Assembly: GCA_026874595.1 (NCBI GenBank)
Contig: CM049311.1
Location: forward strand, 35,753,176-35,817,175
DNA: 64,000 nt
Direction of reading: 5' to 3'
Origin: Sipunculus nudus
Taxonomy: Eukaryota; Annelida; Sipuncula; Golfingiida; Sipunculidae
The notes under the pieces are model-generated. The model worked only from the letters and a program-made list of their open reading frames with translations. It made no database searches and was not told the DNA's origin. The first letter of the stretch is position 1; the number at the start of each line of letters is the position of its first letter. The translations under genes and the position numbers were made by a program. Shown one piece after another: positions 1,759 to 23,030 of this stretch.

Positions 1759-1853
1759 CTTTACTCCAGCAGTGAGCAAAAGATACAACTGGAGATGGAC
1801 TAGTAATCTTCAGCCTGCGACAACTTTGGCCCACAATGAGTCCACCCCAAAAA
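1759..1853 (-). CDS. Candidate S1 protease exon with catalytic-His motif
   Basis: Read on the minus strand, the exon follows a TATTGAG acceptor and translates as FWGGLIV...PVVSFAHCWSK. This matches the F-C-G-G-x-L-I ... W-V-x-A-A-H-C region of chymotrypsin-fold proteases, with the catalytic His in AHC. The cysteine before GG, normally disulfide-bonded to the Cys after His, reads as tryptophan, and there are about eight extra residues between GGLI and AHC with one additional Cys. It starts in phase 2, matching the phase-2 donor proposed for the preceding exon, and ends in phase 1 at GTAAAG. The odd residues suggest a divergent or non-catalytic protease homologue, or decay. Confidence 0.4.
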
Positions 1854-2086
1854 CTCAATACCACGAACCACATGCAATGTAAAACATCACCTATATGGAC
1901 ATGACCAACATCGACCCCGGGTTTGTCGCTCAAAAAATAAATAAATAAAATTAAATGAGTTACCGGTTCGGAAAAAAAAGTTGATTTTCAGGGTGTTTCT
2001 ACGTTTTTGATTACCTTGAATGAGTAAAGGGCACAACCTAGAGACAGGTATTTGGGGTAGGGGAATTCTGATCCATGGCCTAGTAC

Positions 2087-2231
2087 GGACTTGTGAGGCT
2101 TTTATCGGACTGTTTAAGGGTGAATGATCCTACCATCCACGGCCATTTCTTCTTGTCCGTCACAGTGTTTCCGTTGAAGATGATCGGGTACAGCTCGTCA
2201 TCACTAGCTCCACTTACTCCACACGAGGATG
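2087..2231 (-). CDS. Exon starting a trypsin-like (S1) serine protease domain
   Basis: The exon starts after a TACGTACAG acceptor in phase 1 and reads SSCGVSG...LYPIIFNGNTV...KKWPWMVGSF. This is the layout of S1 proteases: a linker Cys-Gly-Val, then the new N-terminus (normally R/K-IVGG or IVNG), then W-P-W-x-V. The basic activation residue is missing: LYP precedes IIFNG, so ordinary trypsin-type activation is not expected. A GTACTA donor in phase 2 gives the frame of the next candidate exon; an earlier GTAGGA donor (phase 0, exon end 2134) is the alternative. Phase 1 at its start fits the end of the module-3 exon at 9613, so I infer one mosaic gene. The linkage rests on phase, strand and order. 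Confidence 0.5.
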
Positions 2232-2389
2232 CTGTACGTAATATAAGTACAAAATAATAAAAAATCAAATATTGACATTATAAGTAATATCCTATCTATT
2301 ATTTTAACTACTATTAACAAAAAATGTCCACTCGTTCGATGTTTCTTTTGGGTCACAGTAACATAAGTAAAACTTTTTCTTAGCTTTTT

Positions 2390-3485
2390 CACACTATATG
2401 GTCCATCTGTTTATTATTTACTTAATATTTGGGATAGGAAGACAAGAAACCCTGCCGTTAAGTCCGACAGCCATGTGGTTCAGGGTTAGTAATCAGAGGA
2501 TTCCCTCCATTTAGCATTTCGACGGGAATTTATTAATCTTTCTATGTCTTTTGTCTTTCTAGTGACAACGATTCTTTGTACAAATAATCACAATAACATG
2601 CCGTCAGCAGGTACTGAAGTTGAGCACGTCTAATTCTGTTTCGAAAAGACGACAACCTTGGCACAGCAAACGAGGACGCGCTTTCTGATTGGTTAACGGC
2701 AGGTCCACACACATAATAAATTCTGTAATAACCCCAGTTGCTATCAAAAATGAAGATGTAGATATTGTAGAAAATTCTAAATACTAAGGATGTACTATTA
2801 ACAGAAATCTGAATTGGAAAGTACATGTGTTGAATCAATGCAAGAAAGCAAACAAAAGATTATATTACCTATATTATCTAAGAAAGCTAAATATTGACAA
2901 AGCCATTATTACAATGTTTATGGCCAACGGTCCTATTGGTCAATAATCAAGAGAAAATAGATGGGAACTCACCGAAAATATAACCACAGATAAATGGTGT
3001 TCCTCTACCGTCATAGGTATATTAACAAGTACATTCCCACCGTACTGAAGATACAAAACATCGATGCTAAACACTGATTTTTTAGGTGTAAATAAAGAGG
3101 TAAACAACCTTACGTGTTGTAGAATCCGTTAGAATTTAAATCGCCTGGTGTACAGAAACTTGAGAAGGGGTATTTTGATTGTTTGGTGCGGGATTGATTT
3201 ACGCTTGATTGCTGTGAAGTCCATTCCAACAGACTCACTGGCTGTCCTTGAAGCATACCCAATGTTGACTACTTTTAAGAAGGCGGAGATATAGCGTAAA
3301 CATAAGTTCCAAACATTTCTTAGGATTTCACTTGCATATGTTTATTAATGGAGTCTTCAGATGGTGACACCGCCGACGTAACAACGGTTCAGCGCACGTA
3401 CTTCAAATTGAGCCCGAAACCGATGTGACATGGCTGCCTATCCCAAATATTAAGTAAATAATAAAGAGATGAACCATACAGTGTG
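2390..3485. mobile_element. 1.1 kb element with 49-bp terminal inverted repeats
   Basis: The ends 2390-2438 and 3437-3485 are inverted copies matching at about 46 of 49 positions by hand comparison, both beginning CACACT or CACACTG-like outward and ending GGGATAGG inward. The inside holds a decayed LINE fragment, so the element is either a non-autonomous DNA transposon that took up a LINE or an inverted duplication. No clear target-site duplication was seen. It lies in the intron upstream of the protease exon. Confidence 0.6.
2788..2946 (+). pseudogene. LINE reverse transcriptase C-terminal relic
   Basis: A 52-residue open stretch reads GCTINRNLNWKVHV...CKKANKRLYYLYYLRKL. This matches the thumb-region pattern of non-LTR reverse transcriptases (YLG-x-x-x-D-x-x-L-x-W-x-x-H-V ... 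K-x-x-x-R-L-x-x-L-x-x-L). A stop codon (2785-2787) replaces the residue before GCT, where Y-L-G is usual, and the frame closes at 2944. It is a short non-functional fragment, not a gene of the host. Confidence 0.6.
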
Positions 3486-3548
3486 TAAAACGCAGGAAAA
3501 TGTCAGATAAGTAGTTTTAAAGAAATAACCCAAAAAAGGGTTTCACCA

Positions 3549-3549
<1 letters not shown>

Positions 3550-3608
<59 letters not shown>
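3550..3608. repeat. (TA)n microsatellite
   Basis: About 29 uninterrupted TA units. Confidence 0.95.
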
Positions 3609-3609
<1 letters not shown>

Positions 3610-3611
<2 letters not shown>

Positions 3612-3975
3612 GAGTCGTTGCGCGTGTTACCAATCGCTATTCAAAGTTGGCCTGTTCAAACAAAATAACAAAATTCTCGTTCAGCCAGCCAGTGTTGCTC
3701 CTTGTGAAAAGTGTTCTCTCCCGGCCCATGAGAGCGAATCGTCAGGTCCTCAAAGAGCCTTGGAATCACGTTTAAGTTTTGTATGCATCTATTAGCAAAC
3801 ATAAATACCAAAGACTTGTTAAGGCTGAAAAGAATTAAAGTCGCTAAAATTCTAAATATGAAGCCAACCAAAGCATGCCGAACAGGTATGTATCTAGCTA
3901 CAGGTCTGTGGGGCAAACAATTCTATTTGTTCTTTCTCGTTTGCGTTACAGCTCCTAAGGTGGTCAGTTTACCCT
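3610..3975. other. No supported gene
   Basis: Open frames on both strands here overlap one another and show no recognised domain. A plus-strand stretch rich in Lys and Arg (about 3783-3920) is unassigned. Confidence 0.3.
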
Positions 3976-4624
3976 CTAAAGCTTGGTCTGATCTAACCAA
4001 AGTTGTTGTAAGGCCTCAACACTCATCTTCATTAATCTTGAAAAATATCCCCAAACCGTTAAATATGTCAAAGTCGCATATATGTTTTTTTTTACAAAGC
4101 GCGAAAAATAAGCCCCAATAATGAAAGGTTATCTCCAAACCTTTAAACACAAAACGTGAAAAAATATTATAGGAAAACTAAATCACGGTTTGATCATCGG
4201 TAATGTTTTGTGAAATTACGGTTTGTGTCCACTTGCGAGGAAAATAAAAGGTTTCACGGTTTGTGCTGCTATCATGTTTCTTGAAATCACGATTCAAGCT
4301 AGCCTCAAAATCGTGATTTCAAGAGCCATCGTGTATGCAAAACGTGAAAAAAGCTGAAACCAGCGAAAAAATCCATGCTTACTTCCAAACATACCGGTCA
4401 CCTTCCTCTAAATGTCTGCTGTACACGCAGACAGTTGTCTTACCTAAATTTGAGAATTATTATCGGTCCAAGATCAATTTATGACATGTTCGATAAAATC
4501 GATAGAAATTTTTAAGGCTTCAAGTCGGGCAAGAATATCTTGCACAGAAAATTGCCGTCAAACCCTGCATGCATGTTAATAATAACTGATCTGAATAGAC
4601 AGGTCCCTATTAAAAAAGTACAGA

Positions 4625-5668
4625 TTGTTCAAAGATCATTTCTCTTCCGGTTCTTCTCTTACTTCTTTTTCAACTTTTCTTCTTTTATGTCCTTTTCTTT
4701 TTCCCATTTCGTCTAACTCTTTTTCTCTTCCTCTTGCTTTTGCTCGTGTTTCCTACTTCATCTTGCTCCCTTTCTTCTTTTTTCTTATTCTTTCTAGACA
4801 TTTCCTCACTCTACTTCTTCTGTTCTTCTGCTTCTTGCTCTTCTTTACAATACCCTTATTCTTCTCCTCCTTCTTTTGGCACTCATCTTACTCTTTGTCT
4901 TGTTCTACTTTTGCTTTTTCTTCCTCTCACTGTTCTCCTTCTTTATTCTTGATATCATTCTTTTCCCTCCTTTTCCCAATTTTCTCAAGCGTCTTCTTGC
5001 TTTTTTTCTTTTAACTCTACATCTTATTCTTCTCTCTCTTGTTCTTATTCTTATTTCTCCCCAGGTTTCTTCGTTTTCTTAATTTCTCACTCTTCTTCTC
5101 AAACCTCTTTCCCTTCCTACTCTGCTGCGTTTTCATCTTCTGCTTCTGCTTATTATTATTATTCAGCTTTTTATTTCTTTTTATTTGTTTCCACTTGCTC
5201 TTCTACTCCTCCTAACTCCTGTTCTCCTTGCCATTCTTCTTCTTTTTCGTCTTCTTACAGTTCTTCTTACATTTCCTGTCCTGTCTACTGTTACCCACAC
5301 TCTTTTTATAAATCTTTATATATCTTTTCTCCACTTTTTATTTCAATTCTCTTCTTATTTTCAGTTCTGTTACGCTTATTTTTCTTCTTGCTCCTTCCAC
5401 ATCTTCCTACTTCTTTCATTCTGTCTCCTTCATCTTCTCACTCTGCTTTATCAACATCTTCTTCTTATCTTTATTATTTCTTCTATTATTCTTCCCCCTC
5501 TTTTTCCCTCCTGTTCTGTCTTGTCCTATTTCGCTCTTCTTGTCAGTCTTCATTCTTTTCTTCTCCTTTTTCCTTTACTCTTCTTCCTCTTCTCTTTACT
5601 TTTATTCTTGCTCTTTTGCCGGATTTTCTCTTCTTTTTCTTTATTTTCCTTACCCTTCCTTTACTAAT
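4625..5668. repeat. Kilobase-long polypyrimidine tract (left foldback arm)
   Basis: Almost pure C and T on the plus strand for about 1 kb, mostly TTCTTC, CTTCTT and TTTC permutations with scattered A and G. The Ser/Phe/Leu-rich open frames that cross it are low-complexity artefacts. Confidence 0.9.
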
Positions 5669-7754
5669 ATATATTTAATATATATATATGTATATATAGA
5701 GAGAGAGGAAGAGAGAGAGATTACCTGTTTGGATAATAATAAACGTAAATTAAAACGAAAAAGTAAACCAGATAAGGCAAGTAACCACCTGGCCCAAATT
5801 AGCATAATGACTGGACTGAAATTTCAGATTATAAAAGCACAATCTTGCACACATATATAATTCATATTAAATTATGTGTATTCATACAGTGATAAATCAA
5901 CAAACTGAACGAGCACTGAAAAGCACTGATAGAATGCAAATAATCTATGAATTGCATTGAACAATGGTAACATGGTTTAGTAGGGCACTGAATTACCAGG
6001 TCGAGACAAATGTCATAATGGCTCCAAAACTTCCAAAATATTCATTTTCACAATTGTCTGAAAAACTGGTTCAGCCAATTTAGTTTATAGTTTGCTTGAT
6101 GACAGTAATATATCAGAGAATTAGGCACATACCTTAATAGTAATTAATGCCAGTGAAACAGGCCTGGATACATTTTCACCTATGGTTAATTTCAAATGGT
6201 TGAAAAAAAACTTACCAAATTGTCAGAAAAAAAACAAAACAACATTTACCAAGTGACTTGTTTTCACCAACATTTATCATATGTGCAAAATAAAGTGCAA
6301 ATCAGTAAAGCCTTTGCCGAGAGAAGCCCTGAGTAGGTCCTCCGTTAACTGAAAAAAGAGACCAAGGGAGCAAAAAAAAACCGCTCATAAAATGATGTAA
6401 AAAGACAGATGGCACCACCAAATTCTGATTCAAGGTGTACTTGGCCCAACATACAAATGTATACACAGTTTAGTAATGATCTCTCTGGCCAGTGCTTAGA
6501 AAAGCTGTCAACAGACTGACGACGGACGGCGATGAACGACGGACTAAGGATGCGCCAGTACAACAACTCACAAGTAATCAAGGAATTAGAAGAACAGTTA
6601 ATAAAAAAAAGGATAACAAGCAAGGGCACAAAAAGAAGTGATCTATTGGTAATGACGGTCAGCTACCTTGTTTCTGAGGGAGCTAAATGTTCACATAGTT
6701 ATTGCATTTGGGAATGGCTGTGCAGCAGGATATCAAGTATGATTTACCTACTGGCCCAACTAAAATCTTGATACAGTTGTCATCAAATGCAACATGAATC
6801 GCTATAGTATTACAGTTTCTGTGATTTGTTTATTAAACCTTAGATACTTACATAATTTACATAACCCAAGCGAGGTTGTTTTTCCACATGAGAATATATG
6901 GGTGTCTACCCCCCCCCCTACCAATTGCAGGGTGTAAATCTCTTCATTAGTTAAATAGCTATTGTCAAAGATACGCTTATGATTGATATAGGCTGAAAGA
7001 GTTATAGGCTAATAAAGACAGGAGAGCCTATTCCTGAGCGTACAACTTAATTTCTGGCTTAACCAGACAGACGGCTGTAAAGACCCATCCCTATATCTCG
7101 GATGTTGAAATTAGGCATTCTAGAAAATAATAACAAGAATAAGTAAAGTATTCACCACCATTCTTATTCAACTCATAAATATATCCATGATCAATAAGCA
7201 TTCCTAGTTTTTTTTAAATATATGAAGCCGCAGCTAATAAGATCACACTAATGCTTGATTTGTCCGTTTAATAAATACAAGAAAAATGCATAAAAACGGA
7301 ACATTTGCAGGTGGCGATACCATATTGATTAACTTTATGGCGAACACGCAGACAAGTGAAAAATCAATACAAGTAGAAATGTGTAGAAATGAGAAAATGT
7401 ATATGGTACTAACGAGTCTTGTTTATTTGGTAGAACTTTTCATGTTTAATATGCGTACCACGGTTTTAGGAGAAAACATGGATCTGAGAAAGTTACACAA
7501 TTGGTATAATTTCGCAATTTAATAAAAGGATAAAAATGCCTATAAATATTAAATAAAATTTTAATGGTACCACACCGCTCGTTCAACTCATAAAACTATC
7601 CATCATTAATAAGTGTGTCAAGTTTCAGGACAATGCTTGGCAGTTTACAGTTTGAAGTTTCTAGCTCCGCTCTATTACTGGTCGCCTCGACGGACGGACT
7701 GTGGACAAAGGCAGATCGCTATAGTCAAAATAACTTTCTGTGAGCTTAGGTTAT
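5669..7754. other. Foldback spacer, no supported gene
   Basis: AT-rich, with a TA/GA-rich stretch at its start. Two pieces carry GACGGACGG strings (near 6520 and 7695), common in dispersed invertebrate repeats. No protein domain was recognised. Confidence 0.4.
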
Positions 7755-8625
7755 AAGAAGAAGAAGAAGAAAGAGCAGAATACCAAAAAAATCAGAATGT
7801 GATGCATAGGGGATTAAGAAGGAGAAAAGTCAAAAACAGAAGAGCAAAACGAAAAAGAAGCAAAGGAAGAATTGCAACGAGTAAGAATACGGACAAGAAG
7901 AAAGGCAAGCAAAGAACAAAAAGAAGAAACAGAAGGAAAAAAAAGGAGAGAGAAGAGACGGATGAGACGAGGCAGAGGAGGAAGAAAAAAAGTGAAAAGA
8001 AAAGTAGGTAGAATAAAAAGGGGAAGAAGAAGAAGGAGGATAAGAAATATAGGAAAGCACTGTAAAAGAGTTATACAGAAAAGAAGAAGATACACTAGAA
8101 GAAAAGAGAGTAAGTACTGAATAAAGTAAGATGGGCAAGACGAAGTAGAATTAGAAGAAGAAGAAGATGGAAGACAGAAGAAGGGGAAGAAAATTCAGGA
8201 CATTAGAAGAAAAGCAAGACAGAAAAGATGAACAGAAAGAGAAGCAAATTAGAAGTAAAGGAAGTAGAGCAAGAAGGAGAGCGAATAGAAGAAGATAGAA
8301 AAAGAAGGAGAAAAAGAACAAGACGAAGATAAGCAAGACAAGAAGAAAAAGAAGAATGAGAAAAGAGAGATGAGAGAGAAAGAAGCATGTGGATTATAAA
8401 AAGAAATGTAAGGAGAAGAGCTTAGGGCGATGAAGTACAATAGAAGAAGATAAAAAGTGTGAGGATGAGAGCAAGGGGAAGCGGACAATGTACATAAAAA
8501 ACAAGGCGAAAGGCAGAATAAAGAGAAAAAAAGGAGAGAAGAAGATGAGAAGAAGAAAAAAAAAGTGAGAGCACAAGGAAAAAGCAGAGTAAGAATGGGG
8601 AAGAGAAGAATAGTCTTTGAACAAT
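7755..8625. repeat. Polypurine tract (right foldback arm)
   Basis: GAAGAAGAA-type sequence of about 0.87 kb, the complement in kind of the left tract. The Lys/Arg/Glu-rich frames across it are not genes. Confidence 0.9.
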
Positions 8626-9361
8626 CTTTCCTTTTGTGAAAAGGGACCAGTCTATTCAGATAAGATTATTATTATTCACATGCATGCAGGGTTTGACAGC
8701 AATTTTAAGTGTTTTGGTGCGAGTTTCCAAGTTCTATTGATCTTAATATGTCATAAACTGATATTAGACCGATAATAATTTTCAAATGTATGTAAGTGAA
8801 CTATTTGCGTATACAGCAGACAATTTGATTTTAGTTTTTTCATATTTGGCATACACGATGGCTCCAGTTTCACGATTTGGAAGCTTGCTTGAATCGTGAT
8901 TTCACAAAACATGACAGCAGCACTTTCCGTGTTGTTATTTTCCTCGTAAAAGGAACAGGGGTCCTAAAAAAGACCGTAATAACACAAAACTGGTGACCAA
9001 AACGAATTCTTTTTCATAAAATATTTTTTCACGTTTTGTGTTTAATTGTTTGTAGATAGTCTTCCACGTTTTGAGACTTATTTTATCACGTTTTGTAAAA
9101 AAAAATATGCGACTATGACATATGTAGCGGTTTGGGGATATTTTCCCCGATTAGTGCAGATTCACGTTTTTAGGCCCAACAGTGGTTCAGACCACGATAT
9201 ACGGCGTTCAACGAGAGACCGCAACAACCCCTACATATTAAGCATAATGAGGCTGTGTTGACTCAGTTGAGATATAAATTGCAACTTAAATGTTCAGTAT
9301 GTATGAAATTATTGGCACTTACTCACAAGAAAACTAGACAATGGCTATCTTCAACGGCTCT

Positions 9362-9540
9362 GAAGGCATGCTGGGAAGGCCTGTCCCCTGGTCGATTTAT
9401 GAGGGAACCACCATATTTGGGTGTTTTTCGGTATTTTGCATAGATCCCCCTGTAAATGCGCATGTGATTCCCTTTTGGGGTTGTGATCCAATTAGAGGGG
9501 AAACTCTCACCAGCGGGTCCTCGGACTCTATTCCTGAATG
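9362..9540 (-). repeat. Dispersed repeat, copy 1
   Basis: Its reverse complement matches 29721-29923: both run TTCAGGAAT ... AGAGTTTCCC/GGAGTTTCCC ... GGGGATCTATGCAAA ... CTTCCCAG(C/A)ATGCCTT. The second copy has extra sequence near the 3' end. Confidence 0.6.
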
Positions 9541-9612
9541 GAGTCTGAATGTTCGGGTTAATATGCATCTAGCAGATTATATGGAAGAAATATCTGATTA
9601 CGAACTACTCAC

Positions 9613-9754
9613 GCTGACTGAGTGGTCCGTAACACAGGTTGAGGTACAACTCTCCTGTTTTATGCTTCTTTTCCTGGTACGCTCGTGTTTTGTAGTTCCA
9701 CATGTCCTTTCGTACCTCCGCTACAGTTCTTTCATTCCAATCGTCCACGTTGGC
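9613..9754 (-). CDS. Module 3, second exon, of secreted mosaic gene
   Basis: A long pyrimidine tract and TTTTCAG acceptor precede a 142-base exon reading ANVDDWNERTVAEVRKDM...YLNLCYGPLSQ. From W-N to C-Y-G it aligns without gaps (38 residues) with module 2 (WNKNTVERVREDM...YQTLCFG). It starts in phase 0, matching the first-half exon at 10859-10971, and ends in phase 1 at a GTGAGT donor, like modules 1 and 2. If the donor is not used, a TAG codon (9605-9607) ends the protein after three modules. I prefer splicing because modules 1 and 2 end at the same kind of donor in the same phase. Confidence 0.75.
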
Positions 9755-10858
9755 CTGAAAAAAAAATCCGTTTCCAGTATACTCCCAAGTTTATACTGTT
9801 TCCATCGAAGGTTAGACTGGCACAATAGCTAAATCTGAATTTTTAGCAGTATAAAAAGTAAGTGCTGCCACCTGCCGGAAAATTATAGAGCTAATTCATG
9901 GCCACCACTGTTACGGTACGTGGTTTCCGACTCGGTTATGTCTATCGAGGCACTGAGTCCCGTTCTATTTTCCATATTTATGTGTCAACATATATACTAA
10001 CAGACCTGACATGTCTACCAGCTGATAATTTGCTTGATTGGGTATTAACTTGAAACATCTCCTAATTCCATTATTGAACTGTTCCCCTGAACATACCCTG
10101 AGAGTCAGTATCCGGTTTTCTGCAAAGATCACGTGTAAGGCCAAAAAATGTATGTTTCTCAGGCACTTTTTCAGAAATTTTTACCTTTTTTTGTATGGTT
10201 TGATAAAAACGTTGAATCAGGGAAAAGCATTATATTAACAGAATAGTTTTGCTCAATAGGTAAAAGCACTATATCACAAAAGAAATCTTATCAAAATTGT
10301 ATCATTTTATCTTCTTGAAAGATGAAAATAAAAATAAAAATTTGTGATCCGGGGGGTAAAATTGAAGCGGGCAGTGCATGAGAACCAATATTTTTTTTGC
10401 GTAAGCCTACGAAACTGCTAACCAAAACCTTCAAGCATGTGATGTAATGTTGAAGTCTAGGGCTACAAAACAGGGTTGTTGTCACGCACCACGCACGATA
10501 ATTTTGACCCCCAAATGAAATATTGTCATTTGATATCCATTAGAAATGAACCGATTTTAAGGTCCAGAAGCTCGCACATGCTTTCAAAATAGAATAATTA
10601 TAAAATTTCGATAAAATGTCATTTTTAAGTGTTTTTATCTATTTAGCAAAACTCTTCCGTTATTATCATGTTGTCGTCTGGTCTTATGAAATTCATATGT
10701 ATAAAAACATTTCGCCCTCACGAAAAGAGTATCTGTGAAACCAACATTTTCTGACCAAACTACAAATATTTTACATGCGAAGACCCTAAAAATTTTATGG
10801 TCATTCTCTGGTCAAATTTGAAACATTTTGAGAAATGTTCTTTTTAGATCAATTATAC
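9755..10858. other. Intron of mosaic gene, no repeats recognised
   Basis: AT-rich; contains a small G-rich patch at about 10351. Nothing else was supported. Confidence 0.5.
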
Positions 10859-10971
10859 CTGACTGAGAGCTGGGCTTCCTGTACCGGTCTCCAGGCAACC
10901 AGCTTCTTTCCACAGATGGAGTAGGCATTCACTACTATGCGGGCCTGGCCTGCTTTCTTCTCCACACTCAA
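10859..10971 (-). CDS. Module 3, first exon, of secreted mosaic gene
   Basis: After the acceptor TTAACCAG the phase-1 frame reads LECGEESRPGPHSSECLLHLWKEAGCLETGTGSPALSQ in pieces: CGEESRPG, PHSSEC, LWKEAGC, GTGSP. This fits the invariant core PHSxEC-x4-W-x3-GC-x3-G-x2-SP shared with modules 1 and 2. The exon is 113 bases, starts in phase 1 as required by the 11658 donor, and ends in phase 0 at CAG|GTATAA. The longest open frame here is in a different phase and is a shadow. Cys positions and spacing suggest a disulfide-stabilised extracellular module; function unknown. Confidence 0.8.
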
Positions 10972-11657
10972 CTGGTTAATAAAAATTGATGGATTATACA
11001 CGTGTAGTTGAACTCTACATACATGAACATGTTTTAAGGAAAATTGTGCAAATGGAACACCCAAAATTCATGACACAGAATAGTGTACTCTTACAGAGAA
11101 TAAACTAGTTGAGGAAATTAAACCAAATTTTATATATTTTTATATAAAACTGAGGGTAACGAAAATGTCAGAATTCGTAAAATTTAACGATTTTTTTTCA
11201 GTGGTCTTGCTTAAAATGCGATTCTATTGTCGCAGTATTTTAGTTTTCAGTTTCATTCAAATTTCAGTAGCATTCTGAAATATACACTCCCACATATCGG
11301 TCACGTTCCATTCCTAGTAATTCCATTCATTCTGCTCACTGCTTCCACGTTTTTGGTAGAGACCCCACCAGGAGAGCAATGTATATGGGGGCCACGCCAA
11401 ACGTTAAATTTTCAAACTCTTCTCGGTCGCAACATTTGGCCCAATGCTGGCCAAGCATATGTTTTTTAACCAATGAGAACTGGACATCTTGGGTTGAAGC
11501 CAAATTATCGCCCAAACAGTCATGCTTGGCACGGCGCCAATATATACGGCTCCACAAGTGGCGGTCTACGGCAAAAGCTCCCCGTTAGAAGCACTGGCAG
11601 AATAAAATGTAATAGCAGGAATGGATTGCGTAAGACGTGTATCTAAATTGGACTCAC

Positions 11658-11766
11658 GGCTGGCGTTCCTGGTGCCAAAGCAGAGAGTTTGGTAAGGCAC
11701 TCCCTCCTCGTCGGTTTTCCCCTCGTTAGCCTGCTGTCTGTACATAGCCATATCCTCCCGGACTCG
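11658..11766 (-). CDS. Module 2, second exon, of secreted mosaic gene
   Basis: The exon starts in phase 0 after CATCCCACAG and reads RVREDMAMYRQQ...GVPYQTLCFGTRNAS, ending in phase 1 at C|GTGAGT. It completes module 2 begun at 13199-13347: the joined segment WNKNTVE|RVREDM...LCFG is collinear with module 3. The fourth conserved Cys (LCFG) is here. The intron within module 2 falls about 13 codons downstream of the one within module 3, though both are phase 0. Confidence 0.8.
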
Positions 11767-12024
11767 CTGTGGGATGAATCAACGTACATCATTAAGCCTT
11801 TCACCACTATATTTATTAAGTATCTACTTCCACGAAGAAGTTTATGTTTCCCCCGTGTTTATTGTTTGCCTTTATGTCTGTTTGCAGGACGTACTACGCC
11901 AAACTTTTAGACTAACTTCAGCGGAATTGCGAGGATCCGAAGACAGACTAGGATCAAGTAGGATTTGCTTTGGCGGAGGTATGCGCTCTAACTAGTGGGA
12001 TTAGAGTCACCTCCTTCTTACTCT

Positions 12025-12028
<4 letters not shown>

Positions 12029-12063
<35 letters not shown>
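12029..12063. repeat. (TA)n microsatellite
   Basis: About 17 TA units followed by further TATATA. Confidence 0.9.
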
Positions 12064-12067
<4 letters not shown>

Positions 12068-12585
12068 ATATATATACGATTTATACCTTCGAATCAATTC
12101 TTACATTTGAAAAAGAGCTTCGACATCGCAAAATTAAATCGCAAACCCCCTCTAATGTGAGAACTCACAGAGGACTTCAGGATAGTACATGCAAATAATA
12201 ATAATCGAAATGAATCGATTCAGAGGTATATAATCCATTTCAATTTAATCGAAGGCTTGCAATTCAATGCATACATATTTGCATCCTCACACAGCCTTAT
12301 ATATAGCGCAGCCCTCAATACAAGTTGTTAAGACGTTCTGGCGCTGTTCTGAGAGCCAAATTCTCTTGTAAAGGCCGAAATGGTGCTAACTTTTTCTCGA
12401 TAAATTTTCCCCAGTCAAATAATAAATTGTGTTGTCCTTGACTCCGTAGGATAGATTATGTGTGTTGACTTATACATCGCGTGAGAGCCTTTAACCCTAC
12501 GATTTTATTGAATCGTGCTCTTCCCTGTCTCAGTTGATAACAATGTCTGTCAAATACACATACATGTACTGCATGGGATTATGTA

Positions 12586-13071
12586 CAGTGGCGGATCGAG
12601 AATTATGCTATACGGGGGACACAAGTGTAAGCGCAAAACGTTAACCCTTACTCCACAAATAGAAACGAATATAACAAGACCCTGTGTTCAGTAGATCCAT
12701 ATCCTAAAGGTTGGCCTTGGTCATGTTAGACACATTGTTACGTTATAATTGGGTTTTGCAGGCCCAAATGAGGGCGAAAAATCAATAAAAATTACTAATT
12801 ACATCTTGTTATAAATACTGAAGCACAACGTAGTGAAAAAAATGCGAGTAGCATCTGGCAGTCCAAGAGGTAACGCTACGTTTCCAGCCACAGTGGAGAC
12901 AATTAGACAAATGGTTAAAAAGGTGTTGAACTTGATATAAAATCTCTTATGACATTGATAGATGCAATACTATTTTATTGTAAAGGTCGTACCAAATATA
13001 CAAGGTAGCAAGGAAAAAACGGAATGCAAAGGGGGCACGTGCCCCCCCCCCCCCTTTTGGATCCGCCTATG
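12586..13071. mobile_element. CAGTGGCGGATC-bounded element
   Basis: Starts CAGTGGCGGATCGAG and ends TTTTGGATCCGCCTATG, imperfect inverted ends, with a poly-C run just before the right end. Same end type as the elements at 16519-16722 and 27495-27641. Non-coding. Confidence 0.6.
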
Positions 13072-13198
13072 ACGAAGAAGAAGACGAAAAATATTGTTCT
13101 ACCAAAACGACATGTCTAATGCAGATGTGATTGGAATAGACATTCCAGAGCCTCCCATCTTTTTTATACTATAAAGGTTATTTTAAATGCGACTTTAC

Positions 13199-13347
13199 CT
13201 CGACCGTGTTTTTATTCCACCATTCTCTCCTGTCCGGGGACCTGGCTGGGCTGGCAGTGCCGTTCACGCTGCACCCTGCTGCCGTCCACTGCTTCATCTG
13301 ACATTCGAGTGAGTGGGGACCGAGAGCTTCATCAAAACTGCAGTTAG
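13199..13347 (-). CDS. Module 2, first exon, of secreted mosaic gene
   Basis: Accepting at CATCTAG, the phase-1 frame reads NCSFDEALGPHSLEC, QWTAAGC, VNGTASP, REWWNKNTVE and ends exactly on a codon at GAG|GTAAAG. It carries the first three module cysteines and the core PHSxEC-x4-W-x3-GC-x3-G-x2-SP. A nearer acceptor (CTGCAG, giving a start at 13337) would drop the first conserved Cys and break phase with the consensus GTGAGT donor of the previous exon, so the upstream acceptor was chosen. The 149 bases plus one carried base give exactly 50 codons. Confidence 0.8.
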
Positions 13348-13901
13348 CTAGATGGTGCATAACAAAGTTAAGGACAATTTAATCTAAGGATGGCTACGTT
13401 GATTTCGCTTTTATAATTCCTTTGTTGAATATCAAAGATTATTGCAATAGATGTATTTAACCCTATCAGGTGAAATTTAATTTTATTACCAGAAATGATG
13501 GTCTATTGGTCATGGCCACTCAGCTTAGCCTATGCTGGAGCATGCCGTTATACTAACTATGAACCTCTTTTACTAACTAGTAAACTATATTTCATTTTAT
13601 AACATAGACCTTGCAAAGCATGTACTGAAGATCACAATCGGAAGACTAACGTTTAAATTTTGATTAAAAAAGGTTCGGAATATCCTTCTGTAGTTATTTT
13701 TTAATTGTTTTGTAATTGTTTTTGTATTTGTCGTATATCACTATGTCAAGTAACAACCAATTCTATCTTTTTCTATATATTTGGTTGTTATGGCATGAGA
13801 AATGTAATAGTCTGAGAAATATGGTTGTTTTTATTTCATTTCAAGAACTTTTCACTTATTAATTTGGATGTTCAAGACTTTTCTGAAGGCTAATTTAGAG
13901 T

Positions 13902-14075
13902 CACAGAATTTCGGTGTAAATATGGATAGTTACTCACAGAATTTCGGTATATAGATTTATAGTCACAGAATTTCGGTATATAGATCTATAGTAACAGAAT
14001 TTCGGTATAAATATGGATAGTTACTCACAGAATTTCGGTATAAATATGGATAGTTACTCACAGAATTTCGGTATA
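13902..14075. repeat. Six tandem copies of an exon end and splice donor
   Basis: The string CACAGAATTTCGGT (one copy AACAGA) starts at 13902, 13935, 13963, 13993, 14026 and 14059, spaced 28-33 bases. The copy at 14059 is the 3' end of the module-1 exon plus its GTGAGT donor on the minus strand. The other five lie in the following intron; three of them keep the same TTACTCAC donor context. Confidence 0.9.
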
Positions 14076-14310
14076 TAGCCCAAGCAGTTCTTCTGGTAGA
14101 CAGACAATCCACGATCAGAGTACTTTTTAGTGAATTTCATGCTGTTCCACACCTCACCAGCATTCTTATTGTACAAGAGTCGCTTCATGTATGGGTCTTT
14201 AGGACTGAAGTCTCCTTTTGGTTTACATCCAATGTCAAGCCACCACTTTACCAGACATTCCTGAGAGTGGGGCGGTGGGGTCGCAGGATCAACCGGGCAG
14301 TCAGGCTCAT
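14062..14310 (-). CDS. Module 1 (single exon) of secreted mosaic gene
   Basis: Acceptor TTTGCGTGCAG, then in phase 1: DEPDCPVDPATPP, PHSQECLVKWWLDIGC, KPKGDFSP, NKNAGEVWNSMKF, VYQKNCLGYIPKF, ending in phase 1 at T|GTGAGT. Four cysteines and the core motif match modules 2 and 3. Unlike those, the whole module is in one exon. The 3' end choice is set by phase: the GTAACT donor four bases on would be out of phase with the preferred acceptor at 13347. Both splice sites are tandemly duplicated in the flanking introns. No named domain family was recognised. Confidence 0.85.
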
Positions 14311-14403
14311 CTGCACGCAAAATAAACACAAATTATACATACAATAAACTCTCGCTCATCTGCACGCAAAATAAACACAAATTATACATACAATAAACTC
14401 TCG
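14306..14403. repeat. 49-bp tandem duplication over a splice acceptor
   Basis: Two copies (14306-14354 and 14355-14403), essentially identical, each with the minus-strand TTTGCGTGCAG|ATGAG acceptor of the module-1 exon. Forty-nine is not a multiple of three, so use of the outer acceptor would shift frame. Confidence 0.9.
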
Positions 14404-16112
14404 CTAATAAGATCACCTCTGGTACCAATAATTTGTTTTACTCTGGCGTGGTAGTGTGTTAAATGTCTATGCAGTGGAAGACACCCTTGAATGAACCTTG
14501 GTTATAACTGACCTTTCTAATCAGACCACTTTTTGTCTGTTCTACGGGTGTTCTTATTTCACAGATTTTACTGTATAGTGGTTACTTTCCAGTCTACAAT
14601 TTCTTATCCGACGTACGAGGCCTGCGTCAGCATCTGTTGCAAGACGTAAGCCGATCATGTTAACTGGAGTTTTCCATAAACATTACCTTCACAGAAAATC
14701 ATCACAGAAAAGGTCTCTGTCAAGCTTTGTTAGCATGACTGCATATAGATATGGTAAGATTGGTGCCTGTGTTTTTTTGTTGTTGTTTTTTTTGTAAATT
14801 TGGTGCACAATGATGACGTTAAAATGGCTGGATATTGCTTAATCGGGAAACTTACCAGACTATTAAAGTTACCAGGAACTGTCAGTAGTTCAGCAGTGTC
14901 AAACTTTACCTCACCTGTATTGACCAATGTCTGTAGTTCAGCGGTGCCAGACGTTAAGTCTCGTTTTAATAGTCGTCACTTATTTAGTGGAGCTAGATTT
15001 TTGTTCACTTGTATTTACCAGGGATTCACAGGATCACTGGACGTGTTAACCAGATCTATATGGCTCATACAGGCTGTTGATGTGGACCAGACGTACCAGC
15101 TGATCGGACACTCGGTAATTTCCCTGTGTTACGGGTCTATCTAGTGCAAGCATTAGACTTTGTAAACCTTTGGTTTATTTTCATACAATGGACATTTAAG
15201 TCTATATACTCATTGGTTAAAACAATTTCTGGCATGTGTTATTGCTATTAAGCTAAGCTTAGCTGAGCTGCAGCTAGGCTATGGTTCAGGGGCCTGGTAA
15301 GTTAATACTTTTGTATTAATGTTTCATATCTGTCAATATCCTTGTTTATTGTTTCACACGGTCTTTTCCTGTTTTGTGTGATAGACTTTGAGCAGAGTGA
15401 GCACAACCGAGAGTGAAACAGTCCCAGTCTAGATGTTTCTTTAACGGGTTTAGATCATGAACACAATCAGTTGTTACAAAGGTTGAGGTGAGGCTTTTCG
15501 GTTCGTGCATATTTATTGCATGCCTACATTCCTTTTGCAGCCTATGACCTGTGCGTTTTATTCCAAGCTTTTTATTTATCAAATATATAAAGTCGTTTCA
15601 CAAAATTAACAATCGTGACATCATAAATATTGGTTTAGTATCATTTGTTCGTCAGGAATGACTAAGAAACATAAAACTTCATGTGTCATAAATAAGGGAA
15701 CCTATATCTCCAGCTGTCGAATAAATAAGTGATAATTTTATACAGGCTTAAAAATATTATCTTAGCATTATATGGAAGAACAATAAAAATTAGGTTATAA
15801 AACACACATCACAGGGAACGTAAATGAATACTTGAATATATACTTGAATACTAGAAACATGAATATTATATGTAATCACTAAACAACTACAATAACATCA
15901 CTATACAATGAGCACAGGATACCTAGCTTTGTTGTAATTTACGCTGTTGAGGTATATAAGGTTTGCGGATATATTCATTTCATATTCTTATATATTCTTC
16001 ATTTTCCCTTTTCTTTCCTACTCTATTTATCTATATACTGAATCCCACCTCGTCCATTTGTTGCTGCGTAGATACGTGCGTGTATGTGTACATGTAAGTG
16101 TGGGAAACTTAC
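14404..16112. other. Intron, no gene recognised
   Basis: A decayed piece at about 14488-14583 (TAATCAGACCAC ... TTTTACTGTAT) resembles the TACAGTGAAACC-bounded MITE seen at 57445-57629. Otherwise nothing supported. Confidence 0.4.
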
Positions 16113-16172
16113 CGCAGAAGACCAAGCCTGCCATCAGTAGCGCTGACGCTATTACGAACAGCAATTTCATGG
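16113..16172 (-). CDS. Start exon with signal peptide of secreted mosaic gene
   Basis: The minus strand shows an acceptor TTTTTTAACAG followed by CC and ATG at 16170, then MKLLFVIASALLMAGLVFC and one base before the donor G|GTAAGT. It is a textbook secretory signal: Lys after Met, a hydrophobic core, and a small-residue-rich end. The phase-1 donor joins the module-1 exon to give ...FC-DEPDC. The acceptor two bases before ATG implies a separate 5' UTR exon, for which a candidate exists at 17070-17150. Product: a secreted or extracellular protein with three Cys/Trp modules (19 + 83 + 86 + 85 codons) and probably a protease-like C-terminal part. Confidence 0.8.
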
Positions 16173-16518
16173 CTGTTAAAAAATAACGTTAAAATTATAG
16201 TTGCGAGGACCACAAGACGGTCCATATAAAAGTAACACCATGCATTTTTTAAAAAGCAGTAAATATTCCCATTTTCTTCTTGGGAAAGTCCGAGTATTTA
16301 ATTTGTTTGTCTTTACCTACTTTACCCTTTATTATTTTTCCTTGTTTTAAGTTTTCGAAATTAAAAGAACTGCAGTTCTGCCTAGGACACATCATAAAAT
16401 TATATGCTTTCAGAAAAATTCATATATTGTGTTTGCCCCTTGATAAATTGCGATTTTTTTTCGAGTCTGAGAGCTCATTTAGATTTCTATCCCTGCTGAA
16501 CACATCTGATAATATATG

Positions 16519-16719
16519 CAGGGGCGGATTCGGGGGGTGGGGGGTGGGCTCAAGGGTGTTCTGAACCCCCCCCCCCCTTTGAGCCGAAACAACTTTTTTT
16601 AGGGTTTCAAACACAATTTTGCGACCCTGACCCCCTCCCCGGACCAGAGGACCATTTTTAGGTTTTCTTTCAGTCTTCTTGGGCGAGGCCCTCCCCTTTC
16701 AAAAATCCTGGATCCGCCC

Positions 16720-16722
<3 letters not shown>
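16519..16722. mobile_element. CAGGGGCGGAT-bounded MITE-like element
   Basis: Ends CAGGGGCGGATTCGG and TCCTGGATCCGCCCCTG are inverted; the interior has poly-G and poly-C runs. About 200 bases, non-coding. Confidence 0.65.
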
Positions 16723-16776
<54 letters not shown>

Positions 16777-16783
16777 ATATATA
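16723..16783. repeat. (TA)n microsatellite
   Basis: Interrupted TA repeat directly abutting the MITE. Confidence 0.9.
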
Positions 16784-16787
16784 TGGC

Positions 16788-16909
16788 TCAGAATGTGGAG
16801 TTTTGTAGACTGTAGAGATTGAAGAAACCGGAGAACCCGGAGAAAACCACCGGCCTTAGCCGGGCAACTACTAACCACTCTCATAACCACGGCGGGAATC
16901 GAACCCGGG

Positions 16910-16912
<3 letters not shown>
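16788..16912 (-). mobile_element. SINE family A, copy 1
   Basis: On the minus strand it reads CCCGGGTTCGATTCCCGCC (B-box-like GGTTCGATTCC), then GTGGTTTTCTCCGGGTTCTC. The same order appears on the plus strand at 60050-60240. It looks like a tRNA-derived SINE flanked by TA microsatellites. Confidence 0.65.

Positions 16913-16914
<2 letters not shown>

Positions 16915-16963
<49 letters not shown>
16915..16963. repeat. (TA)n microsatellite
   Basis: About 24 TA units. Confidence 0.9.
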
Positions 16964-16968
<5 letters not shown>

Positions 16969-17069
16969 TTCTGTATTAGTAGTACCTTTTGACGTACTTT
17001 AATTACCATAAGTCTACAATATGTTTTGATCAGAATAATAATAGAATGACAATTCAAAGTGTTATTTAC

Positions 17070-17150
17070 CTGTGATCCGCCTTTTAACTCTTGCTGAAAA
17101 ACCTGTGGTTGTCTCTACTTTTCTTCTTGTGGCCAAACCTCAAGTGCTGT
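17070..17150 (-). other. Candidate 5' UTR exon of secreted mosaic gene
   Basis: On the minus strand, a TATA-like TATTTAT (17180-17186) is followed about 30 bases later by this stretch, which ends at GGATCACAG|GTAAAT, a fair donor. It would splice to the acceptor at 16172. The start at about 17150 is inferred from TATA spacing. No transcript evidence. Confidence 0.45.
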
Positions 17151-17179
17151 TTTGAGTTCTGTGACTGCTTTAAGGCAGC

Positions 17180-17186
17180 ATAAATA
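17180..17186 (-). promoter_or_regulatory. Candidate TATA box of secreted mosaic gene
   Basis: Minus-strand TATTTAT about 1 kb upstream of the start codon and about 30 bases before the candidate first exon. Confidence 0.4.
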
Positions 17187-17620
17187 TGTGGTCGTCAACT
17201 GTACTTAGCACAAATTGGACTGATAATGCGCCACGCCGAACGCCAAGGTCGTTTAAATGAGTGACAGTGTGAATGCGGGTGTATGGTAGGCGTTGACACT
17301 AATAATTTCAGATCCCTTTTCGTGGTACTACCCAAAGCGGAGTACTCAATCAGCTAAAAGCATCTAATAAAAAAAAATGTTCCCACACACTTTATATTGA
17401 TTTACAATGAACAGGCCTAAGATATAAATGTCAAAGTGTTCTCGAACATATACAGCTATATTTCTGTAGACGTTTTAATGTGCACATCACGCTTAAATGT
17501 TAATAGGCTTAAACAGCTTAATATAATTGTCATATAGAGAGTAAATCCCTCCACAGAATACCTTTCTATTGTAAATAACCCATCTATTGAAAAACCTCAA
17601 TATAACTAATATAGATACTA

Positions 17621-17830
17621 CATGTAGGTCAAAATGATAGATTTATTCTGAAGAATTGCAAAATAGAAGGTACAGAATTTTTACTTATCAATGTTTATTT
17701 TCCTAATAAAGATCATCTTAGAGACCAAATAAAACTCATTCAAACATTGCGTGAATGGTTAAATCGATGTATTGATAAAACGGTGTTAACTGAAGGTGAC
17801 TTTAATGTTACCATGAATTTAAAAAAATGA
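17621..17830 (+). pseudogene. LINE apurinic-endonuclease relic
   Basis: The open stretch of 69 codons reads ...FLLINVYFPNKDHLRDQ ... LTEGDFNVTMNLKK and then hits stops. This matches the L1/Tx1-like endonuclease pattern L-x-N-x-Y-x-P-N ... G-G-D-F-N-x-x-x-N. GEGDFN is altered to TEGDFN. Weak continuation in other frames (NNSLKI-type) downstream suggests frameshifts. Not functional. Confidence 0.7.
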
Positions 17831-18054
17831 TAAAACGGGTGCCCACCATTCAAAAAGTAATTAAAATTTTTATTCCTGAAGGTTTGTGAAAATAACTCTC
17901 TTAAAATTTAGCCGAAATGCTCCTGTGGGAAATGGTCAAACTTACATTCATAATGACATTCAGGTTTGCTTATTTAAACTTGACCAGTTGACAGTAATTT
18001 AACATGAGTCCATTTAGCGCTCTGAATGGTTGGTTTCCTCAATCCTTGATAAGT

Positions 18055-18590
18055 GTTCTTCATCGATTAACATGCAAGATTAATAAAAAAGTTGATACAA
18101 AAGCTCCAGTATCTAAATAATTAATGCAATGATCGCCATGATTCTTTGCAAACATAATGATAATGTAGTGTTTCATCAGTTCCTGCAACGTGGTGGTCCC
18201 CCCTGTAATTTTTTCGATGATAAACATCCTTGGAAACCTGAAATTAGGGCATCTGTTACCCATATCCTCCGAGCTAATTAAAAATTTGATACAAACAGAC
18301 CAGTATCTTAATAAATAAAGCATTGATTGCCATGGAGTGTTTCACCAGTTCCCGCAGACTGGTGGCGCCCCCTGATTTTTTTCGAATTTTTACGCATTTC
18401 TTACTGTATTGTTGAGACCTTCAAATGAAGTGGACGTCCGTTAACATGGCATAAACCGTAACCGCTGGACCTAGAAATTTCTATTACCTGAATATCCAGG
18501 GAGGTCATTAAAAATTATTTCTGAAAACCTGAAATTAGGTCCCTGTTACCCATATCCTCCTGGCTATGGGGCCCTTAAGTGCCCCCCCCC
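18055..18590. repeat. Degenerate tandem repeat with GGTGGCGCC-type core
   Basis: Segments recur: TTGATAC...CCAGTATCT at 18090 and 18280, CACCAGTTCC/CATCAGTTCC plus TGGTGG(T/C)(C/G)(C)CCCC at 18175 and 18332, and CCTGAAATTAGG plus TACCCATATCCTCC at 18238 and 18526. Non-coding. Confidence 0.7.
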
Positions 18591-18966
18591 CCTTTCTGGG
18601 TCTCCCTTAATACACCGTTAATTCTGATGGTAAAGTGCTAATTTCGAGCCTGAATATTTAGCCAATTCAGTATCGCATTAGGTCACAAGGTCCCATTTAA
18701 TCTCATTTAAGATGAAATAGACTTGTGAATGGCACAGTTTGCGTTGCTTGGCTCTAGCCATTATACCAAACGAAAAGTTTGATCTTTATATATGTTTAGC
18801 ATTTACACAATAAAATTTGCCAGTATCGGTAAATTATTGGTCAGTTAGAGACATGGTGTCCAAATTCTTCTTTAGGACCACTTTGTGGGGCCAATTTGGC
18901 TTCGGTGTATTTAGTTCGGAATTGTATGAAAAGGAGATACACAAGCTCCAGTTTCCTTGCTCTTGT

Positions 18967-19371
18967 TTAAAGGGACATAGTAAGGACCAATATAAAGTCT
19001 ATTCTTTCAAACTGTCGGTTAATGTTTGCTTCATACAAAATTTCCCAGCAAAACCATCCTAACACACGGTCTCAGTATACCTTCTCTTTATCTGCTTCAT
19101 CATCAACACCTTGTTATGGTCCTGTGTGTGAGTAAACACGGTCCATGTGTCTGTTAATAATAAAAGGCCTCGTGTCGGGATGTCCGCTTTTGCGCATCCG
19201 GGTAAGATCTCGATCAAACCAAAGATAGACGTGCACTGGTTGTAAAACACTGGTTGTAAGCCTGAAAAGAAAACGGAAGACGTAGATTGCTTTGTTTATG
19301 TTGGTGCCACCTTTTTAACATTTATGTACAGGATTATAGGTCTCTTTGTACGTGATTATATGTCCCTTTAA
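18967..19371. mobile_element. TTAA-flanked MITE, copy 1
   Basis: Begins TTAAAGGGACATAG and ends TATGTCCCTTTAA: inverted ends AGGGACATA with TTAA on both sides, as expected of piggyBac-type target duplication. A related copy in the opposite orientation is at 54336-54820, sharing TTTCCCAGCAAAAC and AAGAATAGAC-type inner segments. Confidence 0.75.
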
Positions 19372-20064
19372 GTAAAAATAAAAAAAATTAAGGGGAAAAT
19401 GTTTTATGCCATAATTTAGTTTTAAAGTTGTGTAAAACAGGTCCAAACTTCAGGCTTTTCATACATGTTTTTTACTGCCCTGTGTCCTTCAGTGAATAAG
19501 GATGAATTATCTATTGTGTGACCAGCGGCTAAGTGTGACTGACGATAATTTGATGCCCCGCACTTATAGAATATATGCGGGTGAAGGAATACAGACCTTG
19601 GGATAATAAGCTCAATCGGTCAATCGTATTCTGATAAATTCACATATTATATACGTGTAATGTAAATTGATGGTAATTAGTTGTATTATTATTCGGTAAT
19701 TTTACCACATGGTGTCTGATCGATGGACATCTGTATTCCTGTAAAGGACATGCTGTCAGACAAAGTAAGGGTCATGAGTGCGAAAAGTGTGACATAGACA
19801 TTATAAATCGTTATGTTTTTTAATGTCGTGTGATATGATTTTAAGATCTCATTCGAGACATGAGATCGAAATGTATGAAACAACCAGGTTACATACTATA
19901 TAGACTCATTTAAAATTTTGTGAATTATTTAGTATGAAAAATAGATGTACTAATATATAACAAATTTACATATGTTTGAAATATTAGCCTTTTGTGACGC
20001 GTTTATTTTTCCGCTGCCTTCGTTTCACAGATCTTTCACTTATGTTACAGGTGCTCTTTTTTTT

Positions 20065-20797
20065 TGTGACACGGGTGTAACTCTTGGTGTGGCGCCCTTG
20101 CCGGGCCGCTTGTTTCACTCTATGTTTAATCCGTACTGGTTGAACTCTCGCTGTCATGCTAGCTTGGGGCTTTCTCGCCTAGCCGAGATCACGTGTGCAC
20201 CCTCGTATGTAGAGACACAGCGTGTTCTTCTAGATGCTTCCTATAACGCATGTTTCCTGTGTATTATGTTAGATCCTTTAGACTGTTCGAGAAGTGGAAA
20301 ATTCTCGGCTTGGAGCAAGAAGTTATAAAAAAAGGGGGCTGTGTTTTAGAGCCGAGAGAGAGAGGAGAGAAGATTCCAGCGGACACAGACGTGTTTATGT
20401 CAGTTTGTGGGACTTGTCCGATTATCCAGTAATTTCTGGGATTCTACTATTACTAACTCTATACAATTTAATGCTGCCTGCTTCAAGTTTACTTTCTGGA
20501 TTATTACAAGAGCTTTACAATAAACTGTTATTCTCCGAGAGGGCTTGTCATCCGGCATATACGTTTAAAAAGACATCGTTGTGACGGTGGTGGTATCCAG
20601 GTACTGTGCACATTGTTTATTTTACTGTGTGATTGTATTGATTTGTTGTTATACCGCTGTTTTACTGTATAATTGTATTGATTGAGTGTATTGTAATGTA
20701 AGGGTTGTTTTAAGAATAAATTGTGGTTATTTGTTAACAAAAAAACACTGACCTCTTTATTCATTCTCCTAGACATTTCACGCTGCCTAGTGTTACA
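20065..20797 (+). mobile_element. Solo LTR candidate
   Basis: Starts TGTGACACG and ends AGTGTTACA, imperfect inverted ends with TGT...ACA termini. Inside it has TATAAAA at 20324-20330 and AATAAA at 20715-20720 in the order expected of U3-R-U5. No partner LTR, primer-binding site or pol frame was seen, and no clear target duplication. The open frames here are fortuitous. Confidence 0.5.
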
Positions 20798-20879
20798 GAA
20801 TCTGATTTTTTTTTTATCTCCATTACAAAATTTGTGTTCATCACACACCACTTAAAGTAACCCAGTTGCAGGTCAAGAC

Positions 20880-23030
20880 CCCGGGACCAACATTTTTTAA
20901 ACGCCACAAGCCACCAGTATTCCTGGGTTGGACCCCCTTTCCCAGAATTCTGGACCCGTCCCTGTATCCAGTGCCGGATTTTTAAGTGCTCTGGACGGAT
21001 CTAATCACCAAGGGGCCTCATCCTCCTGTGAAAATAAATAATTTACCAATAATGAAACATAAATAAATAAAAAGGTTTCTCCGGAATGCCCCATATTTGT
21101 TTCTCATGTTTAGATAGTATAAAGGTTTTTGCTTAGAAAGGTCTCTTGGCTGTAGCCCAGGCCCTTCGGTAGTACTAATCAGGAAATGAATAACACCGGT
21201 TCTTGCACAGGGTCAAAAATCAGACCGACGAAAGCTGTTATCTGACGAGCGAGGGCAGGTATCAAATGTTTAAAATTTGGAGCTGGATGCACAGGGCGAT
21301 ACCACGCTCTTATTGGCATGATAACAATTCTTTGCTCTGTTCTCCCTGTCACACCGGTAAAGGTATGAACGACCAAGTTATTTTAAATGGTAGACCAAAC
21401 CGGCTGAAACAGAAACATACACTCCAAAAGAGAAATAAGATATGAAATAACAAAATAAATCAATATATTAAAAAAATTACATTTTTTTGGGGAGGCGCTC
21501 CATACATATAAACACTGATGATCATAAGCGTCCAATAAAAAACACAAAATCACTAAGTCCGTTATGTTCACTGCATGGGGAAGATCTCTGTTTACTCAGC
21601 TCCTGATCACATGACCATCGCACACAAGTGGCATCGGAAAACTAAGCCGCTCACCCATGCAGTCCGCTCGTTCCTGTGTATATACACAGGACCCTTACGA
21701 TCAAAAGTGCTTCGCCCGAGTACACGTACGCCCCTCAAGGCACAGTTCACCTTAGTGATAGGCGCACATCCTATTGTATCTGAACTTAGAATCAATGTTC
21801 ACAGCTGATGTCTTCTGGGTTCATCTAGCAATAGGTAACTGAATATGTCACCACAAAACGATATCCAGTACTCTAAACTTTTGCGTGTAAATAATGTTCC
21901 AAGCCTGTTACTGGAAGCGCTTACAGCAGATACAAATCGCCGGATTACCATTCCGTCGGCAATTGCGATATCCGCTCTGAAGTCCGTTACTGAGGTATCG
22001 GCGTGGCCTCCTTAGACGCTGTTTACACCTACAGACATCTCTCCAGACTCTGATGAACCCAGACCTGCCTCTAGACTGCAGACAAACGTCAGACTACAGC
22101 AAGCTGGCGCGCTGAACAGGCAATTGTGGAAATTTTCTTCTCAAATACGGCTCATGTGTGCTTGCTGACGTCAGAAGTCACGACCAATCATCTCACTCCA
22201 TCATGCCGATTTTCACTAAAACTACGTGAACATCAAAATGGATACGCCTCCAGGGATCAAACCCTGAGAAAAAGCAACCTAAGCAGGTGTTCGGCCTTTG
22301 AAGTCTACAATAAACAAATATGCTATAGAAACAATCTGGACATGAACCAGTTCCAACGGAATTAAACTGTATGGAAATTAGCCTCAAATGAGGCACCTTT
22401 GTTTTCTTAACTTAATTCCCACGCTAACATCTAAACATGATACTCCATATCAATGTACAATAAATTTAAAAAACAATCATTTGGTTATACTCCCTACTTG
22501 CACATGCAATAATATAACTAAGTAACAGTTCTCTGGTGACACCCTTGTGGTCGAACCCAGAGAACCTTACTATATAAAGCAGGGCTTACATGAAAAGAGA
22601 TCTGGGACGACTGCAGTGTATAACCACTGCGTGAGGGGCGTAATATTTAGCTGTTATATTTATATAGGCAAAAAAACTGTTATATTATCATTTATATAAA
22701 ACTTACATGCGCTTTCCCGGTGATTCGTGAATTAGGAAGTTGTGAGTCAGGAATATTTCTGCTTTGTTGGAGAGCAGAATGGTTCCGTAAGCTACCGCTA
22801 GATGTCAGGTTCAACGGTGCCAAGGATTGAAAGGCGTCCCTCCGTGTATGGGTATTTATTTCTACAGAAAACGTCACAGTTCAAGGGTTTTCTTGGTGAT
22901 TTTTTTTTAATCTTGATTATGTTATAAAAAAACTTAATTTGTAGAAAAAATATCTTTAGAATTAGTAGTGCACTTTTCAGTTTCCCTTTTTTTTAAATAG
23001 TACAGGTTAGGGGAAAATATGAACCTTTTT
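20880..23030. other. No supported gene
   Basis: A decayed CAGGGGCGG-type piece (GGTTGGACCCCCTTTCCC ... CTGGACCCGTCCCTG) lies at about 20926-20966. Open frames at 21.2-22.4 kb show no recognised domain. TATATAAAG at 22572 lacks other promoter support. Confidence 0.4.

Follow-up and report, generated by a model that had tools for sequence, protein, structure and literature searches.

In plasma kallikrein, tandem cysteine modules precede the catalytic domain, and the targeting arms of modular S1 serine proteases include apple domains, kringles and CLIP domains. At their activation site, S1 zymogens mostly require Arg or Lys. The locus considered here lies in a 64-kb window of the Sipunculus nudus genome (C6:35753176-35817175; 1,426,538,692 bases in 153 contigs), the window being the whole stretch of DNA analysed, where an initial annotation had proposed three spliced copies of an unnamed four-cysteine extracellular module behind a signal peptide on the minus strand. 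These copies are very probably the N-terminal part of a secreted modular S1 serine protease zymogen, with three uncatalogued four-cysteine helical modules. As in plasma kallikrein, tandem cysteine modules stand before the catalytic domain in our gene.

The six exons of the annotation are present, with GT..AG introns, and once spliced they give 273 codons without a stop, in which all phases join and module borders are in phase 1. While these six exons were listed correctly, the gene does not stop at position 9613 but continues into an S1 protease domain. The whole gene comprises 12 exons and 537 residues and ends with a stop codon followed by AATAAA; all phases fit and 11 of 11 introns are GT..AG (Table 1). 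From the assembly we could demonstrate this gene structure, the domain order (signal peptide, three modules, linker, complete trypsin-like S1 domain) and, as described below, the recurrence of modules followed by S1 exons in the genome.

Residues 294-530 correspond to Pfam Trypsin PF00089 (E 3.9e-47, 161.3 bits against a cut-off of 20.6), and all four Pfam matches at E up to 1 fall in this part of the protein. The best solved relative is plasma kallikrein (E 4.3e-37), followed by chymotrypsin, thrombin and factor XI. The catalytic triad is intact (His334, Asp389 and Ser486, in TAAHC, NDI and GDSG contexts), and Cys277 and Cys409 align with chymotrypsin C1 and C122; the triad, GDSG and the light-chain Cys1-Cys122 link are thus those of plasma kallikrein and other S1 members. 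On the other hand, no Pfam profile, PAN/apple included, matches the N-terminal modules, which distinguishes our gene from PAN/apple proteases such as plasma kallikrein and factor XI. CLIP-domain and other modular invertebrate S1 proteases are generally known to follow the same plan of a secreted zymogen with a disulphide-rich adaptor before the protease, but residues 1-293 of our protein give no Pfam match at E 1 or better.

Similarity among the three modules is far above chance. Against the 2935 six-frame open reading frames (ORFs) of the window, a three-module profile recovers the five module exons at 51.6-130.7 bits (E 1.5e-14 or better), with every other match at E 0.5 or above; in 40 random windows matched for dinucleotide content, the highest score is 9.7 bits. 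Used singly as phmmer queries, the modules match one another's N-terminal halves at E 5e-5 to 8e-10. Weaker matches are obtained for the C-terminal halves 2b and 3b (2b against 3b 0.005, 3b against 2b 0.007), whole module 3 reaching 2b at E 0.025 and whole module 2 reaching 3b at E 5e-6; module 1 alone matches neither of them, and reversed modules give no match below E 1 in the same ORFs. Pairwise identities are 28/79, 21/79 and 33/84. Read by eye, the proposed motif C-x(7,8)-PHSxEC-x4-W-x3-GC-x3-G-x2-SP is present in all three modules, and the spacing from W to the G of (F/Y)-G is 38 residues in modules 2 and 3. The repeat layout needs correction in one respect: there are three modules, but module 1 has no intron and those of modules 2 and 3 lie at different places, after alignment columns 53 and 41 respectively, both in phase 0. 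At C6 9.1 Mb, five close module 2 relatives are matched over residues 1-82 in a single open frame, so the module 2 intron seems to be confined to the 35.7-Mb cluster. In six other loci (L004, L007, L009, L012, L014 and L016) a module half ends directly past the SP motif, so that the module 3 intron looks like the older one.

The module also keeps its unnamed status. The best Pfam score of the window modules is 13 bits against a cut-off of 23.9, and 21 module members give at best E 0.031, with four unrelated families and no PAN/apple match among them (the cut-off being given for member 1 only). No relatives outside this genome were found in a 5.8-billion-protein set, viral contigs, GTDB genomes and solved structures, none of them a collection built from animal genomes and hence all uninformative on other animals, and no literature title or abstract opening among the matches listed describes the module. 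By these searches, the module is real, uncatalogued in Pfam and expanded in this genome. The fold prediction that the annotation had proposed, made with AlphaFold2 on one module relative, gives four helices (pLDDT 93.2, pTM 0.82), with a folded unit of about 85 residues, and no convincing structural match to it was found among 60 PDB chains compared. Alternatively, the module could be a very divergent member of a named domain, beyond the reach of sequence profiles; in favour of this, small helical disulphide domains are generally known to diverge fast, and the structural comparison covered 60 chains, but we consider it unlikely. As a kind, the module resembles TSP1, EGF and PAN in its phase 1-1 borders, even cysteine count, tandem copies and more than one kind of neighbour, but differs from them in matching none in Pfam by sequence, and no chain convincingly by fold. 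Within each module, cysteines 1-2 and 3-4 probably pair, since in 2 of 26 modules Cys1 and Cys2 are jointly lost while Cys3 and Cys4 are retained.

Two module queries find 107 matching places in the 1.43-Gb genome, spread over 9 contigs; 50 of these places have an S1 exon downstream. Seen from the protease side, a module match lies at most 25 kb upstream on the same strand for 23 of 103 S1 C-terminal exons, against about 0.06 expected by random placement; none of the 103 has a module solely downstream or solely on the opposite strand. The set of 23 contains all of the 14 best S1 matches. Module clusters are followed by copies of the S1 N-exon at C6 9.10-9.23 Mb, at two C12 places, on C13 (E 0.02) and at one C17 place (E 0.35). 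For the other 57 module places, neighbours were looked at in four loci. On C8 there are three module matches, the first of which has a TSP1 repeat (E 2.4e-15) 1.2 kb ahead of it. The modules on C15 (L030, L077) are followed by EGF-like repeats (EGF_laminin scores 21.5 bits with a cut-off of 21.0, EGF_TEN stays under its own) and by a stretch with weak F5/8-like scores, also below cut-off. By eye, the modules on C17 (L028) are followed by a stretch that is acidic and Ser/Thr-rich and by a hydrophobic segment, and a Thr-rich stretch precedes the module on C10 (L026). First Pfam scans of L026, L027 and L030 alone returned no family. From strand and distance, we infer that these neighbour domains belong to the same genes as the modules. 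An extracellular, exon-shuffled module, as put forward in the annotation, fits the signal peptide, the symmetrical phase-1 borders, the 107 genome places and these varied neighbours. Of the 33 C15 module matches, 26 are concentrated in about 1 Mb (C15:58352162-59428528), which, judging from one locus (L030, L077), is perhaps a large tandem receptor family. At L079 (C13:46517347-46518120), a Thr/Pro/His-rich tandem repeat, in which all three minus-strand frames are open, passes straight into the S1 N-exon.

Three further gene copies, G1, G2 and G3, lie in the 120 kb below the window. In simple counts without significance test, the ratio of nonsynonymous to synonymous substitutions (dN/dS) against our gene is 0.27 (G1) and 0.26 (G3) for the modules, and 0.26 (G1, exon 12 excluded as its length differs) and 0.16 (G3) for the S1 domain; His, Asp and Ser of the triad are retained in our gene, G1 and G3. 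G2, on the other hand, has two in-frame stops in module exons and has lost the acceptor of exon 4 and the donor of exon 9; its exon 11 is alignable in part only and its exon 1 was not found. Alignment demonstrates that exons and splice sites are conserved in two tandem paralogues. Their start AG/CCATGAA is also common to our gene, G1 and G3, placing exon 1 directly after an AG acceptor, and therefore an intron in the 5' untranslated region upstream of exon 1 is likely. Exon 7 encodes CGVSGASDDELYPIIFNGNTVTDKKKWPWM, which resembles an S1 protease N-terminus. By itself this exon is no more than suggestive, with a five-residue match to chymotrypsinogen and E 0.046 with a home-made profile, a score reached by 1 of 40 random windows; its assignment is settled because it is conserved in all three paralogues, with matching phase in G1 and G3.

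According to the mechanism we propose, cleavage at the linker would activate the zymogen, and the modules would then stay tied to the catalytic chain through Cys277-Cys409 (chymotrypsin C1-C122). The enzyme would act outside the cell and, by analogy with other modular S1 proteases, the modules could form a targeting arm bringing it to a surface or partner. Read by eye, 11 of 13 related S1 N-exons have neither Arg nor Lys before the I-F/Y-x-G motif: the residue is Ile in the four 35.7-Mb copies (our gene and broken G2 included), Val in five C6 9.1-Mb copies, Ser in one C17 copy (L053, whose S1 exon has no module within 25 kb upstream) and Gln on C13, the remaining two, both C12 genes, having Lys. 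Set against the usual need of S1 zymogens, such sites imply that the activating enzyme would have changed within this protease family; self-activation may be hypothesized.

Several points weigh against the interpretation of the locus as an active modular protease. All exon junctions are deduced from genomic sequence, and exon 7 alone has neither a Pfam nor a PDB match. The 23 co-located cases are not independent, as they include tandem copies, the broken G2 and one upstream module shared on C17. The cysteine pairing is based on two losses, possibly a single event; moreover, C4 is missing at the aligned column in two C15 modules, one of which (C15:58455333) has Cys2 without Cys1. Our gene has Ile where an Arg or Lys would precede an Ile-Val-Gly-Gly-like N-terminus, and the pocket residues Arg189, Met190, Thr216 and Ala226 are unusual, so that activity is not certain. 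Our gene differs from other S1 proteases both at the activation site and in lacking Asp189, which marks the trypsin specificity subgroup; residue 189 appears as Arg in an alignment to chymotrypsin and trypsin yardstick sequences, whereas in the plasma kallikrein alignment a gap stands opposite Asp189. Taken with GDSGS in place of GDSGG (Ser at 197), these features could indicate that the S1 domain is a pseudoenzyme and the product a secreted binding protein that has no catalytic activity and carries a protease-like tail. The retained triad and the low S1 dN/dS of the intact copies argue in the other direction, and we find this alternative improbable.

That a three-module protein without protease would also or mainly be made, by read-through of the exon 6 donor into a ...PLSQRE-stop end, seems very unlikely: a stop does lie two codons past this donor, but its GTGAGT is identical to the donors ending modules 1 and 2, and exon 7 is kept in all paralogues. 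A decayed and unexpressed locus, which broken G2 and the tandem duplications of exon 2's own splice sites on either side of it might suggest, is still harder to credit in view of an open 537-codon frame, splice sites intact at every intron and low dN/dS against two intact paralogues.

Table 1. Exons of the modular protease gene (window positions unless a contig is named) and its tandem paralogues on C6
Feature	Position	Strand	Content
Exon 1	16113..16170	-	ATG and signal peptide (MKLLFVIASALLMAGLVFC); ATG 2 nt past AG acceptor
Exon 2	14062..14310	-	Module 1, uninterrupted, phase 1-1
Exon 3	13199..13347	-	Module 2, first part (C1, C2, C3)
Exon 4	11658..11766	-	Module 2, second part (C4)
Exon 5	10859..10971	-	Module 3, first part (C1, C2, C3)
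Exon 6	9613..9754	-	Module 3, second part (C4); phase-1 donor at end
Exon 7	2134..2231	-	Linker with S1 light-chain Cys and activation site, start of S1 domain (PSSCGVSGASDDELYPIIFNGNTVTDKKKWPWM)
Exons 8-12	C6:35751155-35743025	-	Below the window; found in DNA adjoining it
G1	35.635-35.655 Mb	minus	All 12 exons kept
G2	35.665-35.677 Mb	minus	Broken copy
G3	35.699-35.730 Mb	plus	All 12 exons kept; one GC donor

Both splice sites of exon 2 are duplicated in tandem (window 14305-14402 and 13893-14090), with a 49-bp duplication at the acceptor and repeats of 29-33 bp at the donor; use of the copied acceptor would lead to stops, and this duplication is single-copy in G1, G2 and G3, as overlapping blastn matches suggest. 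Intron 6 holds a fold-back element of about 5 kb (window 4025-9161), whose inverted arms, within 4025-4490 and 8745-9161, are 73-85% identical and enclose long pyrimidine-rich and purine-rich stretches that are mirror images of each other. The same intron contains two 73-nt repeats in inverted orientation (85%, separated by about 1 kb, window 2372-2444 and 3431-3503), possibly a small non-autonomous transposon. A candidate S1 continuation on the minus strand at about 1777 (VVSFAHCW) and 1545 (HHPDYETS) was rejected, both pieces showing nothing S1-like in Pfam or PDB and being unsupported by a rough S1 profile; the true exons sit below the window. Frame-wise scans of the minus strand over 1-9600 and 16100-26000 gave no Pfam family, and no tRNA or Rfam family was found in the window.

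A bolder and rather doubtful possibility is that the module is an undescribed, fast-expanding extracellular domain that one animal lineage has built into proteases, TSP1 proteins, EGF-type receptors and mucins anchored in the membrane, with ligand recognition as its probable shared role. The tandem protease copies may then undergo self-activation or mutual activation, in a private cascade that needs no trypsin-like enzyme, an idea prompted by the aliphatic activation site in two C6 clusters (Lys on C12), the lack of Asp189 and the Thr216/Ala226 pair. How proteases and receptors of animals reach their targets is determined by shuffled extracellular modules, and the presence of one unnamed in Pfam at so many places in one genome suggests that further animal adaptor domains are still to be catalogued. 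Annotators could extend their libraries with its profile, and biochemists would have a folded unit of about 85 residues for ligand tests, while the activation-site change within one protease family would offer a direct test of the rewiring of zymogen cascades.

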